This document shows positions 5,282 through 12,087 of a stretch of 64,000 bases of DNA, one piece after another (the first letter of the stretch is position 1; every line of letters starts with the position of its first letter). The DNA is from Collybiopsis luxurians FD-317 M1. Its lineage: Eukaryota; Basidiomycota; Agaricomycetes; Agaricales; Omphalotaceae. The translations under genes were made by a program, and so were the position numbers. The DNA is taken from contig KN834764.1 of NCBI GenBank assembly GCA_000827265.1, positions 811,449-875,448 of the forward strand, read 5' to 3'. The notes under the pieces are model-generated. The model saw only the letters and a list, made by a program, of their open reading frames with translations. It did not search any database and was not told the DNA's origin.

Positions 5282-5518
5282 GTGGTTCCTAACATGAATC
5301 AAGAAAATATTCAAGAATTTGCTGGATCATCTGAACTTAATGGAAACATTGAATATTTTTGGAATGCGGCCAATGTTCAAGTGCATGGGTCTAGGTTTAC
5401 AAGCGTTGGGGACAATCTTATTCAAAACAATAACTATTGGGGTCCAAGTGAGCTCTGGCACTGTTCATTGATAGCCTCCATGTCTAAATCTCATTGCCAG
5501 AGGTATGATTCACAATAA
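5282..5518 (+). other. N-terminal fragment with the glycine-rich motif of mushroom NLR-like proteins
   Basis: An open frame with ATG at 5294 (MNQENIQEFAGSS). It contains FWNAANVQVHGSRFTSVGDN followed by LIQNNNYW. The pattern 'N-A-x-x-x-x-V-x-G-x-x-F-x-x-V-G-x-x' is the short motif found near the N-terminus of many agaricomycete NACHT/NLR-like and kinase-like proteins. A related version (FAINGGQF, VINGGQF) starts the protein at 48713. After the motif the frame runs to a stop with no recognised domain. A possible continuation at about 5590-5685 (SIQEGNPGERVDIIHKFDKK) is closed by TGA. It is probably a decayed or partial gene. Confidence 0.4.
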
Positions 5519-6771
5519 TTTTAAAATGAAATGAAAACTGTAGGATTAGATCACATATGACATGAAGTGACCTCTGAAAATGTTTGTATGCAAGCTCAAG
5601 GACTATTATCTCATCACTTCTATACAAGAAGGAAATCCCGGCGAGAGGGTTGATATAATCCACAAGTTTGACAAGAAAGAAGATTGAGACATATGGGAAT
5701 CTTGCTTGCAGAGATCTAGGTGTGCCTTTATTCACTATACTCAGTGGTATGTTTCATGATGGATTTATGCAAACACAGATGGGCTCCATTTAGCATTCAA
5801 CAACTTTGGAAGCTGAAAATTGGGGGTTCCCCATGTCTGGCTATATCTTCTGCATGTGAGCTGTTATTGAACTCAAATCAGATTATTGGTATTACTTGTG
5901 GGATGGGCCATTGCGCTTCGTGCGTGGCATGTACAAGTCCGGACATGTATAATGAGACAATCTTGCAAATAGGTGTTTTTTTGAGTAGAACATATCTGAT
6001 ATATTGTAGCGGCGTGTCATGATCTTTGTTGTTGCATTACTTCCCACTCACTTACCATTCACTCGCTCATCTCCTTCTTTATCTTATCAATAACTCCTTT
6101 TAGTTCTCCATTACATAACCCTTGTACTACTATTTAAGCCAGCAAGTATGTAGAACTAGGGTAACCTTTTTTAAATCAACCCCTTTACCTTATCACTCAT
6201 CTGAACACTAAGCTCAGTGCTCACTCAACTCAGCAAGCCTTCCCCTTTTGTGACTGCGCTCTCTGTAACTCTGTCACTGTTGCGCAGCACATATACACAT
6301 TTGACATATACACATAGCAGCGATTGTCATGACCAGTGATGAGGTGATATATGCAAGGGATATTAGCAGCAATTGCACATGCCAGCACTGAGGTGTTACA
6401 TATGACTAATCTTGCTCAATCGGAACCAGGAGGGGAAAAAAATTTTAAAATAAAAAAAAAAAGAAAAAGAAAAACAGAAAGGAAGATTGAAGGTGTTAAA
6501 GGCCAAAATTATGAGAAGTACATTGACCGAAAGACAGCAAGAGCTCAAAAAAGGGACAGAGCAATGGTACGGAGATGAAAGCAAGGAAAGCGGAGATGGT
6601 AGTTGAAAAGATCACACATAACATGACAAATGTCACAAAAGTGACAGATCCGTATAAGGGGATAAAACCTGCATACAAACGGCAAAAAAAAAAGTGTGTG
6701 AGAAATGTGGGAAAAAGGACAACTTCACCGCAAGACGATTCCTTCATTTCATTCTGGACTTGTAACTTAAG
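5519..6771. other. Gene-poor stretch, possible solo LTR
   Basis: No recognisable coding exon. At about 6016-6300 the sequence has LTR-like features: it starts TGTCATGATC, has a TATTTAAG box near 6132, then CT-rich DNA. No second copy in this window confirms it. Bases 6431-6478 are strongly A-rich. Confidence 0.35.
6316..6404. repeat. Direct repeat of about 40 bp, two copies
   Basis: Two diverged copies, 6316-6353 and 6365-6404, share AGCAGCRATTG, a CATG(A)CCAG core, TGAGGTG and a final TATG. Role unknown; it lies about 370 bp before the start of the single-codon-exon gene. Confidence 0.5.
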
Positions 6772-9415
6772 ATGCCGGTAATAGCTGTTTATACAATTCA
6801 GGAAATTTATGACGGCAATATACCTGCCATCATGAGACAGGAAATCATAGTGAATTTGGATTCTTTCTTTGTTTGCAATATACTCATGATATATATATAA
6901 GTACCTCAAGCTCATGGTAAGACTAACCTGGGGATATGCTCTTAATCTACTTAGAATACTCTATTTCACATTCAGGTATTTTTTCTGAGGAATTCCTCTG
7001 TGTATCCCGGAAAATGGGTTGGACCTCAGTTATGGGCTGGTCAAGGGATATATAAGAAGCTTAGGCTTTTTGATGAAGCAGGGAATTTGTCCGTAGACCC
7101 GGACTACCTGAAATCTTTGGGATTGCTTTATGAAGAATTCTCAGAATACAAGGTTTGAGTTTGCACATTTGTTGTCAGTTTAAATCAACTGACAAAGCTT
7201 TGCCAGATATACGGAGATGTTGAGTTCTGGTTAGATGCTGAGTCTTATCAGAAAGACGGGTAAGATTACTAAATTGGCCACTATGTTGTTCTTATACAGA
7301 CAACTTACGGGGATATATGAAGGTGAAATTGAGGTAAATAGGATCACAATGTTACACATCAAATCCAATGAGGTAGGTTATTTGGCGAAAATGAGAAGAA
7401 TTATTTTTTACTGTGCATTGTCTGCTTTCACAAGCTGCCATCGGTGAGATGCTGTCTTAATACTCTTCCAAGGTGAATGACTATTGGATCATCCTCTCTG
7501 TTAGCATGTGAGTGTCTATAACTTGTTTTGCTTTTGAATTCCTCTGAGCTACTTTGGCACCTGATCTGTTTTATGACTAGGATGTAAGTTTTTCACTTGA
7601 CATCTGTATACATGACTGCATCAATTTCTTACTTTCGCCTTGCTAGTTGGTAAGCTGCTAGGAGAAAATTCTCTTAGCTTGCAACTAATTCAAGTTGCCC
7701 ACTGCCCTGTCCTTTTGTAATGGATACTCTGAATTTAGTGGGTCAGTAGACCAATCTACATTCAAATGTTTGAGTTCATACAAAGATAGCTAAAATTGAT
7801 GCTTTGGATAGGATGTAAGTCAATCAATTCACTTTTCAAACTCAAATGCCTAGTAAATGATTTACTATTTTTGCTACAAGGGGGTGGGTTAATTTACAAT
7901 TGCTTGTATGGGTCTCTGTTCATTGCCTTGGACTGATGTCCTTTGTCAGAATGTAAGTTCAAGACCATTATGCTACAATTGAAACGGGTTCTTATAAACT
8001 GTCTGGATATTTCACGCCACTAGCCGGTAAGTTCTTCTGCTGACAGTTGATTACCATGAGACTCAGTTGAGTATCTTGTAAATTTCCTATACCAGAAGGT
8101 ATGTCCATCATTTGTACATTTAGATTTTATATGGTATAATGTCTTTTGATTGTTCAATTATTTTGATCATTTACCAGTGGGTCAGTGTACCAATCGATGA
8201 TTAATCTATAAACTTTCTTTAATCAAGCTCACAAACTTACCTTCTTTGCAGTGGGTGAGTTGACAGTTTGCATACATTGTTGTATACATATATGTCAACT
8301 GTGACATTCTATGTCTTTGAATTTCAGAATGTAAGTTAATAATTTATCTGTGTAAAAGATTCAGGTTGTTATCTTTTTGCTAGCGAGTAGGTCAATTTTA
8401 CATGGTTGCAACTCAAGCCCTCGTTTACCTGTTTTTTTCTTCTTCTCCAACCCATGGGTGAGTTATTAACATACTGTTTTCAAGCAATTACCCCTGATTA
8501 GTACTTCCTCCACTTGCTAGCAAGTAAGTTAGTTGGTATTAATTATAGAAGCTTTTGTTTACTACATTCTAGCGAGTTAACTATTCAATTTTTACATTGG
8601 CAAACTGACACAAGCCGACTTTTATGGAACTCTTCTTTTGGTAGCGAGTAAGTCATTACATTAGGACCAATCTCTGAATCTCTTCTGATTGTCCCTTCTT
8701 AGTTTGCAAGTTGATCAACTGCTGTCTACTCAAATGTTCCATTAACTCTTTTTGGATCTTTTCTATCCTTTCAGCTCGTAAGATATGCAATTTACTTTGT
8801 ATTTGAATAAATGACCTAAATATTTCTAATTACTTAGACAGTAAGCAGTCAAATTCCATTTGCATAGTTCAATGGAGCCATTTTGGTCTTTTTCTTCCCT
8901 TTACCAGAATGTAGGTTATCCTGGCCTTTAACTGTCATATTGTAACAGATTGGTACTTTTAGAATGAAAATGCATACAGAACATTGGAACCCAATCACTC
9001 GGAAATTACAGAAATCAGATGTACAGAAGTTGAAGACTTAGTTCCATTGCCAAGCTCATCTCCCATCGCCCCTGGGCCCTCTGTGTCCCCTTTTTCAGTT
9101 CGTGTTCAAGATGCACCTGCTTCTATTATGGAGCAGCCTAGTTCCATCAGGATTGCTAATGCCCTTCAGGATGGTTCTGCAAAGAGTGTTTTTGAGCACT
9201 CAAAACTACAGATCTCACAGTGGCTGCAGAGACTCAAATGCAAAATTCCAACAGCAGTTCATTTGATCCCAAAGGCTAAAGCTACTGGACGATCAGGTAT
9301 CAGTGGATGGACCAGGTCTTTAATAACTCGGGTCCGAACACCCGGTACCCGGGCCTCTGATGCAGAACCAAGTACCTGCGGAACAGAGCCAACTGGTAAA
9401 AGAGCAAGGGCGTGA
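6772..9415 (+). CDS. Unknown protein encoded by a gene with a train of single-codon exons (predicted 306 aa)
   Basis: The product is not recognised. The predicted exons are 6772-6849, 6902-6916, 6976-7152, 7207-7259, 7300-7372, 7435-7443 (9 nt), then 21 exons of 3 nt each between 7505 and 8910, and a last exon 8963-9415 ending in TGA. ATG 6772 is chosen because TAA lies in frame just upstream. The exons join in one frame: MPVIAVYTIQEIYDG at the start, then FLRNSSVYPGKWVGPQLWAG, YGDVEFWLDAESYQKDG and LTGIYEGEIEVNRIT. The microexon-coded segment is Trp-rich (HDLWDGNPKW then WNRWQRRFLTN). The final exon encodes NENAYRTLEP and a Ser/Pro/Arg-rich tail ending GKRARA. No signal peptide or membrane helix is evident. 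One 5' site (7153) is GTTTGA, one (8576) is GTTAAC and one (8706) is GC. The long exons are convincing by phase; true splicing of the short ones is untested. Confidence 0.6.
7505..8910 (+). other. Array of 21 consecutive 3-nt candidate exons (AG|NNN|GT units)
   Basis: The triplets and their first bases are CAT 7505, GAT 7581, TTG 7647, TGG 7739, GAT 7812, GGG 7881, AAT 7950, CCG 8024, AAG 8096, TGG 8178, TGG 8252, AAT 8328, CGA 8384, TGG 8455, CAA 8521, CGA 8573, CGA 8645, TTT 8703, CTC 8775, ACA 8838 and AAT 8908. Each except 8455 is preceded by a pyrimidine-rich tract and AG. Each is followed by a 5' splice site, mostly GTAAGT, GTGAGT, GTCAGT or GTAGGT. The introns are 49-89 nt, the normal size for this genome. 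None of the triplets is a stop, and they keep phase 0 between exon 7435-7443 and exon 8963-9415. At 8455 the 3' site reads CCCA instead of CCAG. The intron after 8703 starts with GC (GCAAGT). Confidence 0.7.
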
Positions 9416-9976: not shown

Positions 9977-12087
9977 TCAAGTTGAAACAATTGCAAGGGT
10001 AAACTGCTGGGTTTCACTAGAACCTGTGAAAACAGTTTCCACAGTCTCACCGCTGGGCATTGCGGAGCTGGAAAAGGCAGTAGATCCACTTGATGCCAGT
10101 AGGAGATTACTACCAGAGGATACCTGTATAGAAGGATTAATATAAGAAAACAAAAAGGCACAGTAAATAGAGTTTTTGTGCCATAAATTCAATCAAAGAA
10201 AGAAAAAGAGAAGAGTCCAGATGAATATACAACAAAATAACTTACAGCTGAAAACTTGGTTGCGGTGACGCCGCTCCCACACGTCAACTCCCCGCCACTA
10301 ACTCCACAACTACCTTTGGACGAAGTCATGGTAAAGCTCGAAGTCGTTCCGGCAAGCGTCATGGTAGCCAAGGTCTGCGTGCTCCAAGTCCCAGCAGTCA
10401 ACAGTCCTCCGACTTGAGAACCACTCTGAACGGCGTGGATCAAGGCTTTACTTGGGAGCGCACCTCCAGTTCCAGTGGACTAGGAAGCAATTAACAATCA
10501 ATTTTCGGTGTGAAAACGATGAAATAACTTACAGTGCTGCTCTAAAGAAACGGGGTTTAGTGGGAGGTAGAATCGGCAATGATTCAATGATCAACTCACC
10601 GGTGTTGTGCTGGTCTTTGTCCCTGTACCAGTGGCAGAGGTGGAGACTGGAGACCCAGTCTTCAGAGGGTATTTAATGCCACTTGACGGGCAATCGCTGT
10701 CTTCCGGAGAATCTGCGTAGATGTCCGACCCAGTAAGTACAGCAACGTTCGATTTTTATATCCAGACTCACCAATAGGCACGAACGTTCCATCCATCATC
10801 GATCCTTTCAAGTTAAAGTACCAAGAGATCTGATTTAAATTACTGCTCGAACACGTCAACATCGGCTTGACCCCAGCTTCAGCGGCAAGAGCATTTTCCA
10901 AGGAGGTGAGTGTATGGGTCGTGGATGACGAGGGTGTGATGCCTTGATTTTCGAGCCATGTGTATGTGGGAAGAGTCTGTTATGAACGACTCAATAACCA
11001 TCATCGCATGACATCGAAAGACGTAAAGACTTGCCTGGAATAGTCGAACCACAGTCTCATAGAAAGCCACCGCCTGTCAATCGAAACGGAGATAAGCAAT
11101 GAATAACACGGATGAACGAAGATCTCATTTACGTCTGTTCCGTCAGCACTTCCACTGGGAAGACAAGATGGACGCAATGTACTGTAGCATGTACCATGCG
11201 TATTCCACTCATGCTAACGATTGATTGATTTCAGTGATTTGATATGATATTCGAAAGTGCAAAGCACTCACCGACCAAAGCTCTTCATCACTTCCGTCGT
11301 CCGGATCGTTCTTCCAGTACTGGGTTGAGGTGTATGAGTACGTACAGTATTTTTGAGTTCAAGTTCACCCACCGTTTGCATGAAAGAGAGGGTGGACGTA
11401 GCGCCAGCGTTTTGAAGCAACTACGAAGAGAGCGCGAAGAGGTCATCGAGACGAGCAGAAGCATTAACGTTGTGGGTACTAACTGAAGTGATTTCGCTTT
11501 GATCTCGCGAAGAATCACAATTCTCCGAGAAAGTTCCATCACAGCTAAGTAGAAGCCCGTTCAGAGCCATTTTCGGGGGAAACGCAAAATGTAGACTGAC
11601 TTATCCGGCCATAAACCTACACCGGTCGTCAGCGCTGGTGAGAAAAGAAGAAGGTGCAGTGAGCGACGTACCGTGAATGGTCCAGCTGTTACTGGGTCCC
11701 GTGGAAGGATCCGTATCCCAGAACTATGATGGGCAATGGTGACACGTCGAAAACAATGAAAGACAGTCAAGAGAGCGCATGCATACCTGAGTTTGCAAAA
11801 TCAAACCCTACAGTGAAAAGGCATGAGATTAATAGAAAAGGAAAGGCGGGATGAACACTGACTCCAGGCGATTCGAAACAGCAAAGATTTGAGACTGAGG
11901 ATGTGTTGTGGCAGGAAGCGGTCCCAGTGGTTGAACAACCGGAAGAAATTGCAACATCTCTTCCAAAAAGGTCAAGGCGACCTCCGAGTCCGAGCGGATT
12001 GGGGGAAGCAAAAGGTGTTCCCAGCACAAGCTGAGAAGAGGTAGCGATGATGAGAGAAAGAGCGAGGGGAGAACCGGCGATAGTCAT
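9977..12087 (-). CDS. Secreted ribonuclease T2 with C-terminal extension
   Basis: An endoribonuclease of the RNase T2 family, which cuts single-stranded RNA through a 2',3'-cyclic phosphate and is normally secreted or vacuolar. The start at 12087 gives a signal peptide (MTIAGSPLALSLIIATSSQL); an upstream in-frame ATG at 12114 is possible. The Cys-rich N-terminus (CSTTGTASCHNTSS) and FWDTDPSTGPSNSW lead into the first catalytic motif IHGLWPDNCDG, which is assembled across introns. The second motif is HEWNTHGTCYST near 11160-11215. Then come YETVVRLFQ, the GVKPMLTCSS segment, a Ser/Thr-rich linker (TSATGTGTKTSTTP), and a C-terminal domain with Cys residues (GSCGVSGGELTCGSG) ending FTLAIVST. It has many short introns. 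Both active-site His residues are present. A TATAAG-like box lies at about 12141-12147 on the minus strand. It is probably active. Confidence 0.9.

Follow-up and report, generated by a model that had tools for sequence, protein, structure and literature searches.

The window, a stretch of 64,000 nucleotides from the basidiomycete Collybiopsis luxurians FD-317 M1 (contig KN834764.1), carries a gene in which units of exactly three bases, all but one bounded by a putative acceptor and donor splice site, follow one another and are separated by short predicted introns. This gene is one of at least 26 copies of a family in the same genome, whose members have constant upstream exons in common. Judging from the sequence, most copies probably bear a train of predicted one-codon exons that would endow each of them with a variable peptide of its own, likely involved in recognition.

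A train of three-base units in the window

Twenty AG-NNN-GT/GC triplets are found on the forward strand between positions 7505 and 8910 of the window (Table 1), and one further unit has CA in place of the AG. The initial annotation of this DNA had described twenty such units in about 1.4 kb, a 21st with a damaged AG, introns of 49-89 nt and the absence of stops among the triplets, and all four observations were reproduced. The damaged unit is the TGG at 8455. Over 7444-8962, array flanks included, 22 introns were recomputed with lengths of 49-89 nt; 21 of them start with GT and one with GC, and 21 end with AG. The triplets translate as HDLWDGNPKWWNR(W)QRRFLTN without a stop, and their ordered, predicted spliced string can be represented by CATGATTTGTGGGATGGG. 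The pattern scan returned 30 matches, the ten beyond the 20 units being isolated or overlapping with them.

With a relaxed form of the pattern, 18 matches were counted in 1519 nt, as against a mean of 0.50 (standard deviation 0.70, maximum 5) in 2000 dinucleotide shuffles. The richest 1519 nt in the rest of the window hold 3 matches, both strands being checked. When exon lengths of 0-30 nt were scanned in the window array, 3 nt (18) was the sole outlier; 7 nt came second (7), likely as a product of overlapping GTAAGT sites. That the pattern arose by chance, or from the base composition of a stretch that is AT-rich and intron-like, was rejected on the shuffles and on the counts at other spacings; the pattern moreover recurs in paralogs, and such an origin is hardly conceivable.

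The public gene model GYMLUDRAFT_57686 (P0001), in its fewest-intron parse, has ten exons of exactly 3 nt, located at ten of the 21 units (7581, 7647, 7812, 7950, 8024, 8178, 8252, 8328, 8521 and 8838). The gene caller thus likewise picked one-codon exons here. The model keeps pieces of introns amid these exons, and most of the peptide predicted in the initial annotation is missing from it.

A gene family with a constant region

Paralogs were sought by protein queries of the C. luxurians genome. Three queries (the exons preceding the array, another exon from locus L011 and the same exon of L029) recovered the same set of at least 26 loci, window included, a count that is a lower bound. Seven constant exons, e1 to e7, precede the array. 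Exons e2, e3 and e5 were detected in all 25 other loci and e1, e4, e6 and e7 in most of them, some projected matches of the latter four being too weak for counting. Exon e7, which typically ends in HIKS-E, was not detected by tblastn projection in L013, L016, L023, L027, L030 and L031. Two loci (L028, L029) are cut by contig ends. The family is clustered, with six loci on contig 21 and five on contig 23.

A profile of the constant region retrieved 14 proteins, 11 from C. luxurians and three from Gymnopus androsaceus JB14, in a search covering proteins whose length is 0.55-1.75 times that of the query and which have short words in common with it. What the three G. androsaceus proteins (P0013-P0015) contain of the constant region is its e2/e3 part. 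When the predicted window protein and 14 constant regions were scanned, no Pfam family reached the curated cut-off, and neither NACHT nor ankyrin was matched. A weak EF-hand match was obtained in one of the 14 constant regions (E 8e-4), and segments of e5 such as LFDQNGNFIIDPEEL resemble what we take to be a degenerate EF-hand loop. The best match of the constant region among solved structures was at noise level (E 0.39). Its predicted structure, computed from P0002 and 13 relatives, had a mean predicted local distance difference test score (pLDDT) of 44, too poor for a fold search.

The initial annotation had looked to relatives for a conserved form of the predicted peptide. This expectation failed: a protein search with the 276-residue spliced prediction gave one match among 484 candidates, the annotated protein of the gene itself (GYMLUDRAFT_57686), identical over 55% of the query. 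The single match is explained by the hypervariability of the array peptide, and for the same reason it is wrong to test the prediction by the conservation of that peptide in relatives.

Three-nucleotide spacing across the loci

Ten or more three-base units were found in 17 of the 25 paralogs, with peptides that differ from one another; the longest arrays count 60 (L025), 44 (L019) and 36 (L032) units. Assembly gaps (N) interrupt the arrays of L010, L017, L018, L020, L024, L026 and L027, making unit numbers lower bounds. Together with the stop counts given below, these paralogous arrays of other codons bear out the earlier proposal that one-codon exons, here as predictions, follow one another in a single phase.

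The spacing between acceptor and donor motifs was counted in the 125,642 bases downstream of the constant exons of the 25 paralogs and the window. YAG-N3-donor occurs 596 times; spacings of 0-30 other than 3 and 7 occur 34.3 times on average (standard deviation 8.5, maximum 58), and a spacing of 7 occurs 55 times. A segmentation that scores splice sites only, with no prior on exon length and with weights trained on the 3-nt units of the paralogs, produced internal exons of exactly 3 nt in 360 of 425 cases, in runs of up to 24; eight exons were of 6 nt and two of 9 nt. The introns of the family have a median length of 73 nt (n=504, range taken 40-120 nt).

The triplets as probable codons

Stop codons are absent from all 433 resolved units, i.e. 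those lying between two introns (the window contributes 13), when 35 would be expected from position-wise base frequencies. Among the 436 candidates, two potential stops each overlapped a better-scoring neighbour four bases off and were resolved to that neighbour. Of 658 decoy YAG-NNN triplets within these arrays, 12.3% are stops, and the concatenated triplets read in the other two frames contain 8 and 49 stops in 372. Retention of an intron would shift or stop the frame in 98% of 472 family introns. Downstream of the arrays, the terminal exons of L017 and L020 resemble each other and are open over 120 and 125 codons in the post-array phase, and that of L018 is cut at 64. This evidence is strong but indirect, and it argues that the array triplets are spliced and translated as codons. 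At the third position of 427 array triplets from all loci, C accounts for 1% and T for 47%, perhaps reflecting a splice-site constraint on the final exon base.

The AG-N3-GT motifs could alternatively be stepping stones of recursive splicing, by which one large intron (7444-8962 in the window, and its equivalents elsewhere) is removed, the codons are mostly skipped and e7 or the 9-nt exon is joined to the terminal exon. Skipping any number of 3-nt units would preserve the frame, L017 and L020 have terminal exons that are open in that phase, and one unit of L025 would function in this scheme as a 0-nt exon. This unit, at position 5444 of L025, is a TAG (TTTAGTAG directly followed by GTGAGT) readable as a 0-nt exon and hence as a recursive splice site. 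Stepping stones need no sense codons, however, yet stops number 0 of 433 where 35 are expected; nor do they need a length of exactly 3 nt, since 0 nt is sufficient, and they leave the diversity of the codons unexplained. Recursive removal of this kind is considered rather unlikely.

Homogeneous introns and diverse codons

In young arrays the introns are up to 97-98% identical to one another over 74 nt and the codons beside them differ. Within loci, 68 pairs of units have introns that are 94-97% identical; in these pairs the mismatch rate is 0.049 in the introns and 0.54, 0.76 and 0.56 at the three codon positions. The codons of these pairs differ by a nonsynonymous change in 59 cases, by a synonymous change in none, and are identical in nine. 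Codon pairs drawn at random from the pool are the same in 5.1% of cases, and since only 2.2% of the differing ones would be synonymous, the lack of synonymous pairs adds little. When only 12 non-overlapping within-locus pairs are kept, mismatches amount to 4.5% in introns and 58% in codons, and two pairs have identical codons when 10.5 would be expected at the intron rate. Alignments of arrays from close paralogs, assembly Ns excluded, gave the same contrast in differing bases of codons versus introns: 13/18 versus 43/659 (L018/L020), 10/15 versus 20/533 (L017/L018), 8/15 versus 28/535 (L017/L020), 10/15 versus 48/540 (L024/L029) and 9/12 versus 38/437 (L027/L028).

Neighbouring units are more alike than others. 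Identical codons were found in 45 of 372 pairs of adjacent units versus 341 of 5097 non-adjacent pairs of the same locus, and adjacent introns are also more alike, which fits a tandem duplication of codon plus intron. One 75-nt intron used as query gave 106 matches (a lower bound), every one of which falls within a locus of the family or within the array fragments of contigs C61, C153 and C190. The intron therefore does not look like a genome-wide introner.

This bears on a second alternative, in which an introner-like element was inserted between the successive codons of a once contiguous coding stretch, so that the codons are old and the introns young. Introner-like elements are known from fungi (PMC4457414), and the near identity of introns lying between different codons would be expected of them. 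Random insertion would nevertheless generate many exon lengths (6, 9, 12 nt and more), and exons of 6 or 9 nt number only 10 beside the 360 of 425 that are of 3 nt. The confinement of all 106 matches of the single intron query, a lower bound, to family loci and array fragments speaks against it too, and the excess of identical codons in adjacent units fits unit duplication. Insertion into a pre-existing coding stretch is accordingly judged unlikely.

In the window array, the introns have lost their likeness both to each other and to those of the paralogs; a profile search for kinship with paralog introns gave a sole match within the window array, at E 9.6. The exact AG-N3-GT/GC arrangement is still present in 20 of the 21 units. 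That the 3-nt spacing and the splice sites outlive the likeness of the introns suggests a long-lasting splicing constraint.

The persistence of this spacing after the window repeat was worn away is difficult to reconcile with non-coding minisatellites of about 75 nt, of which AG-N3-GT would simply be a part, located behind genes that terminate within the first intron past e7. Such an arrangement would agree with the public models P0002, P0003 and P0006, which stop shortly past the HIKS/HIKA/QINS segment of e7, with the repeats that Tandem Repeats Finder detects in L025 and L023, and with the many loci for which no terminal exon was identified. Young units, though, vary at three bases and are conserved over the rest, and the variable bases never form a stop. 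The minisatellite explanation is given very little credence.

Observations weighing against the reading as one-codon exons

Several observations tell against the reading of the arrays as trains of translated one-codon exons. In a relaxed set of units, one stop was found among 484, the TAG of L025 described above. A terminal exon of at least 60 codons, in phase and at most 260 nt past the last unit was identified in only six of 22 loci (L017, L018, L019, L020, L023 and L031), and eight loci (L011, L012, L014, L015, L016, L021, L025 and L033) have no in-phase terminal exon of even 25 codons within the same 260 nt. The 150-codon terminal exon of the window was itself missed, its acceptor at 8963 being below the score cut-off, and the rule is therefore a strict one. 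Two of the 25 paralogs, L013 and L030, have no array to speak of, and six (L017, L018, L020, L026, L028 and L029) have fewer than ten units, all six being cut by a gap or a contig end. The segmentation is partly circular because its weights were trained on 3-nt units, a circularity that affects neither the window shuffles nor the spacing counts. It performs poorly on old arrays, where it returned 3 (window), 7 (L016) and 4 (L031) exons of 3 nt.

The excess of codon over intron differences is also not general. Between the orthologous loci L011 and L012, the 21 aligned units differ at similar rates in codons (6/63) and introns (157/2253). In 18 non-overlapping between-locus pairs, seven of them from L011/L012, eight have identical codons when 15.9 would be expected. 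On the basis of these two results there seems to be no general hypermutation of the codons, and their diversity seems tied to the birth of units, to exchange and to selection, not to a hot three-base site.

The window copy adds its own difficulties. Its exon e2 contains two in-frame TGA; one other copy has one and the remaining 24 of 26 have none. The acceptor AG of unit 14 is lost. The CTNAY branch motif shows no clear excess in the window introns (0.41 versus 0.35 in shuffled sequence); in the introns of the family it is found at 0.73 versus 0.44.

The window copy and its surroundings

In view of the two stops in e2 and the lost acceptor, the window copy is probably an old family member that is decaying, or one that now starts later, as P0001 does. 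The upstream stops suggest that a full-length product is no longer made. The initial annotation had treated the locus as an oddity of one gene; the array it described stands, and the gene proves to be one of at least 26 copies, of which it is an old and probably decaying one. The terminal exon of the window has a single match at the protein level in the C. luxurians genome, i.e. itself, and is thus unique. The distance between e3 and e4 is about 900 nt greater than in L011. Just downstream of the gene, an exon at 10189-10479 on the reverse strand encodes a C-terminal domain resembling that of RNase T2 (PF25488, E 7.7e-21).

Table 1. Features of the window gene, in window coordinates
Feature	Position	Strand	Basis
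Constant exon e1 (MNQENIQ...WGPSE), N-terminal, common to many paralogs	5294..5452	+	tblastn projection, 34% identity; open reading frame match, 4 paralogs
Constant exon e2, two in-frame TGA in the window copy	5550..5720	+	tblastn projection of family exon
Constant exon e3 (RWAPFSIQQLWKLKIGGSPCLAISSA)	5777..5854	+	73% identity to L011
Constant exon e4 (KMPVIAVYTIQEIYDGNI)	6769..6822	+	weak match, 44%, E 0.07
Constant exon e5 (VFFLRNSSVYPGKW...EEFSEYK)	6976..7152	+	matched in 26/26 loci
Constant exon e6 (IYGDVEFWLDAESYQKDG)	7207..7259	+	sequence and projection
Constant exon e7, ends MLHIKSNE, final exon ahead of the array	7300..7372	+	projection, public-model mapping
Predicted 9-nt exon CTG CCA TCG	7435..7443	+	sequence
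Array with 21 units of three bases each, predicted as one-codon exons, and the introns between them	7505..8910	+	sequence pattern, shuffles
Starts of the 20 units, first ten	7505, 7581, 7647, 7739, 7812, 7881, 7950, 8024, 8096, 8178	+	pattern match
Starts of the 20 units, last ten	8252, 8328, 8384, 8521, 8573, 8645, 8703, 8775, 8838, 8908	+	pattern match
Unit 14, triplet TGG	8455-8457	+	preceded by CA, acceptor AG lost
Terminal exon of 150 codons plus stop, continuing the phase of the array	8963..9415	+	open reading frame, public-model mapping

Arrays outside the 26 loci

Similar units were observed elsewhere in the genome. At the start of a contig, locus L038 (C190:1-6000) has a chain of 8 units (21-1081) leading to a C-terminal exon of another kind, 260 codons long. 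The domain encoded by this exon has seven copies in the genome, and an array was absent just upstream of the two examined out of the six other copies. Eight units were found in L036 (C61:82000-91500), three in L037 (C153:1-9000) and two in L039 (C61:1-5000), all without recognisable constant exons. The stretches following the arrays of L036 and L039 are alike.

A proposed mode of diversification

The repeat unit would consist of one codon and one intron of about 75 nt and would multiply by tandem duplication. Each unit containing exactly one codon, the gain, loss, exchange or skipping of units would keep the frame. The introns of young arrays, similar enough for recombination, would be homogenised within and between copies and then be spliced out, and the codons would stay diverse, most likely through diversifying selection; we infer such selection from the contrast that codons make with introns in sequence. 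In the predicted product, a constant domain of about 270 residues would be followed by a variable segment, some 10-60 residues long, in which Leu, Trp, Asp, Phe and Ser abound, and by a tail of low complexity. Splicing would proceed intron by intron since a 3-nt exon is too small for two simultaneous splicing complexes; such intron definition, one intron after another, follows from established splicing mechanics. The clustering of the copies, the diversity of the codons and the parallel with the repeats of fungal NLR proteins suggest a role in self/nonself or host-microbe recognition.

More tentatively, the introns may be regarded as a disposable scaffold for recombination, and unit skipping could turn n codons into as many as 2^n isoforms, all in frame. 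The arrays would then form a generator of single-residue diversity in the germline and possibly at the transcript level. With exons as small as 3 nt, arranged by the tens and typical of a whole family, the arrays would offer a direct test of exon definition, of the order in which introns are spliced and of how small an exon can be. It also suggests a coupling between the concerted evolution of repeats and single-residue diversification, through a scaffold that would cost the protein nothing. As the public paralog models that were inspected break off ahead of the array or shortly after it begins, like arrays in other fungi may be overlooked.

Comparison with known systems

The repeats of bacterial TAL effectors are nearly identical apart from a hypervariable pair of residues; their repeat scaffold is translated, whereas that of the C. 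luxurians family is predicted to be spliced out. The bicycle genes of aphids have a microexon structure, with exons that are not known to be one codon long. They form a fast-evolving family whose relatives were found via gene structure (PMC9168663), and here also gene structure reveals relatives hidden at the sequence level; they differ in being animal genes, implicated as effectors of plant galls. The micro-exon genes of schistosomes have many very short exons, of 3-81 bp (PMC10526429); very short exons are likewise predicted in the C. luxurians family. Their introns reach 5 kbp, in contrast to a median of 73 nt here, their exons are not uniform 3-nt units and their products are secreted. The introner-like elements of fungi (PMC4457414) share with the family the multiplication of near-identical spliceosomal introns. 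They would be expected across unrelated genes and between exons of varied lengths; here the introns were found in one kind of array only (one intron query, a lower bound) and 360 of 425 exons are of 3 nt.

A literature search, which left most subscription journals uncovered, gave no account of the C. luxurians family or of one-codon exon arrays in Basidiomycota. The statement in the initial annotation that such an architecture is undescribed holds in part; it was too strong, as tens of codon-sized microexons are reported in the nank genes of Tuber melanosporum (PMC3689799, PMC4986451, PMC10197012). The two systems resemble each other in having tens of codon-sized exons in a row, present here as sequence units (60 in L025, 44 in L019, 36 in L032). 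Both are expanded families of fungal paralogs with frame-neutral units that are thought to diversify a recognition protein. They differ in that the C. luxurians family gave no NACHT or ankyrin match, in that it belongs to Basidiomycota and not Ascomycota, and in that its introns are copies of a repeat with hypervariable codons between them.

The closest parallel for the evolution of the repeats is offered by Podospora NWD genes and other WD, ANK and TPR repeats of high internal conservation in fungal NLR proteins, which undergo concerted evolution within and between paralogs, with diversifying selection acting on a few codons of each repeat (PMC4986451). As in these, the scaffold is homogenised and specific codons are diverse, L011/L012 and the old array of the window being exceptions. 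In the NLR repeats the scaffold is protein, whereas here it is intron, predicted to be spliced away so as to leave the variable codon. The Pfam scans moreover gave no translated WD, ANK or TPR repeats following a NOD domain, and 98% of its 472 introns would stop or shift the frame if read. Overall, the C. luxurians family is not a member of the nank genes; it combines a nank-like exon size with an NWD-like evolution of repeats, in which the scaffold is predicted to be spliced out.

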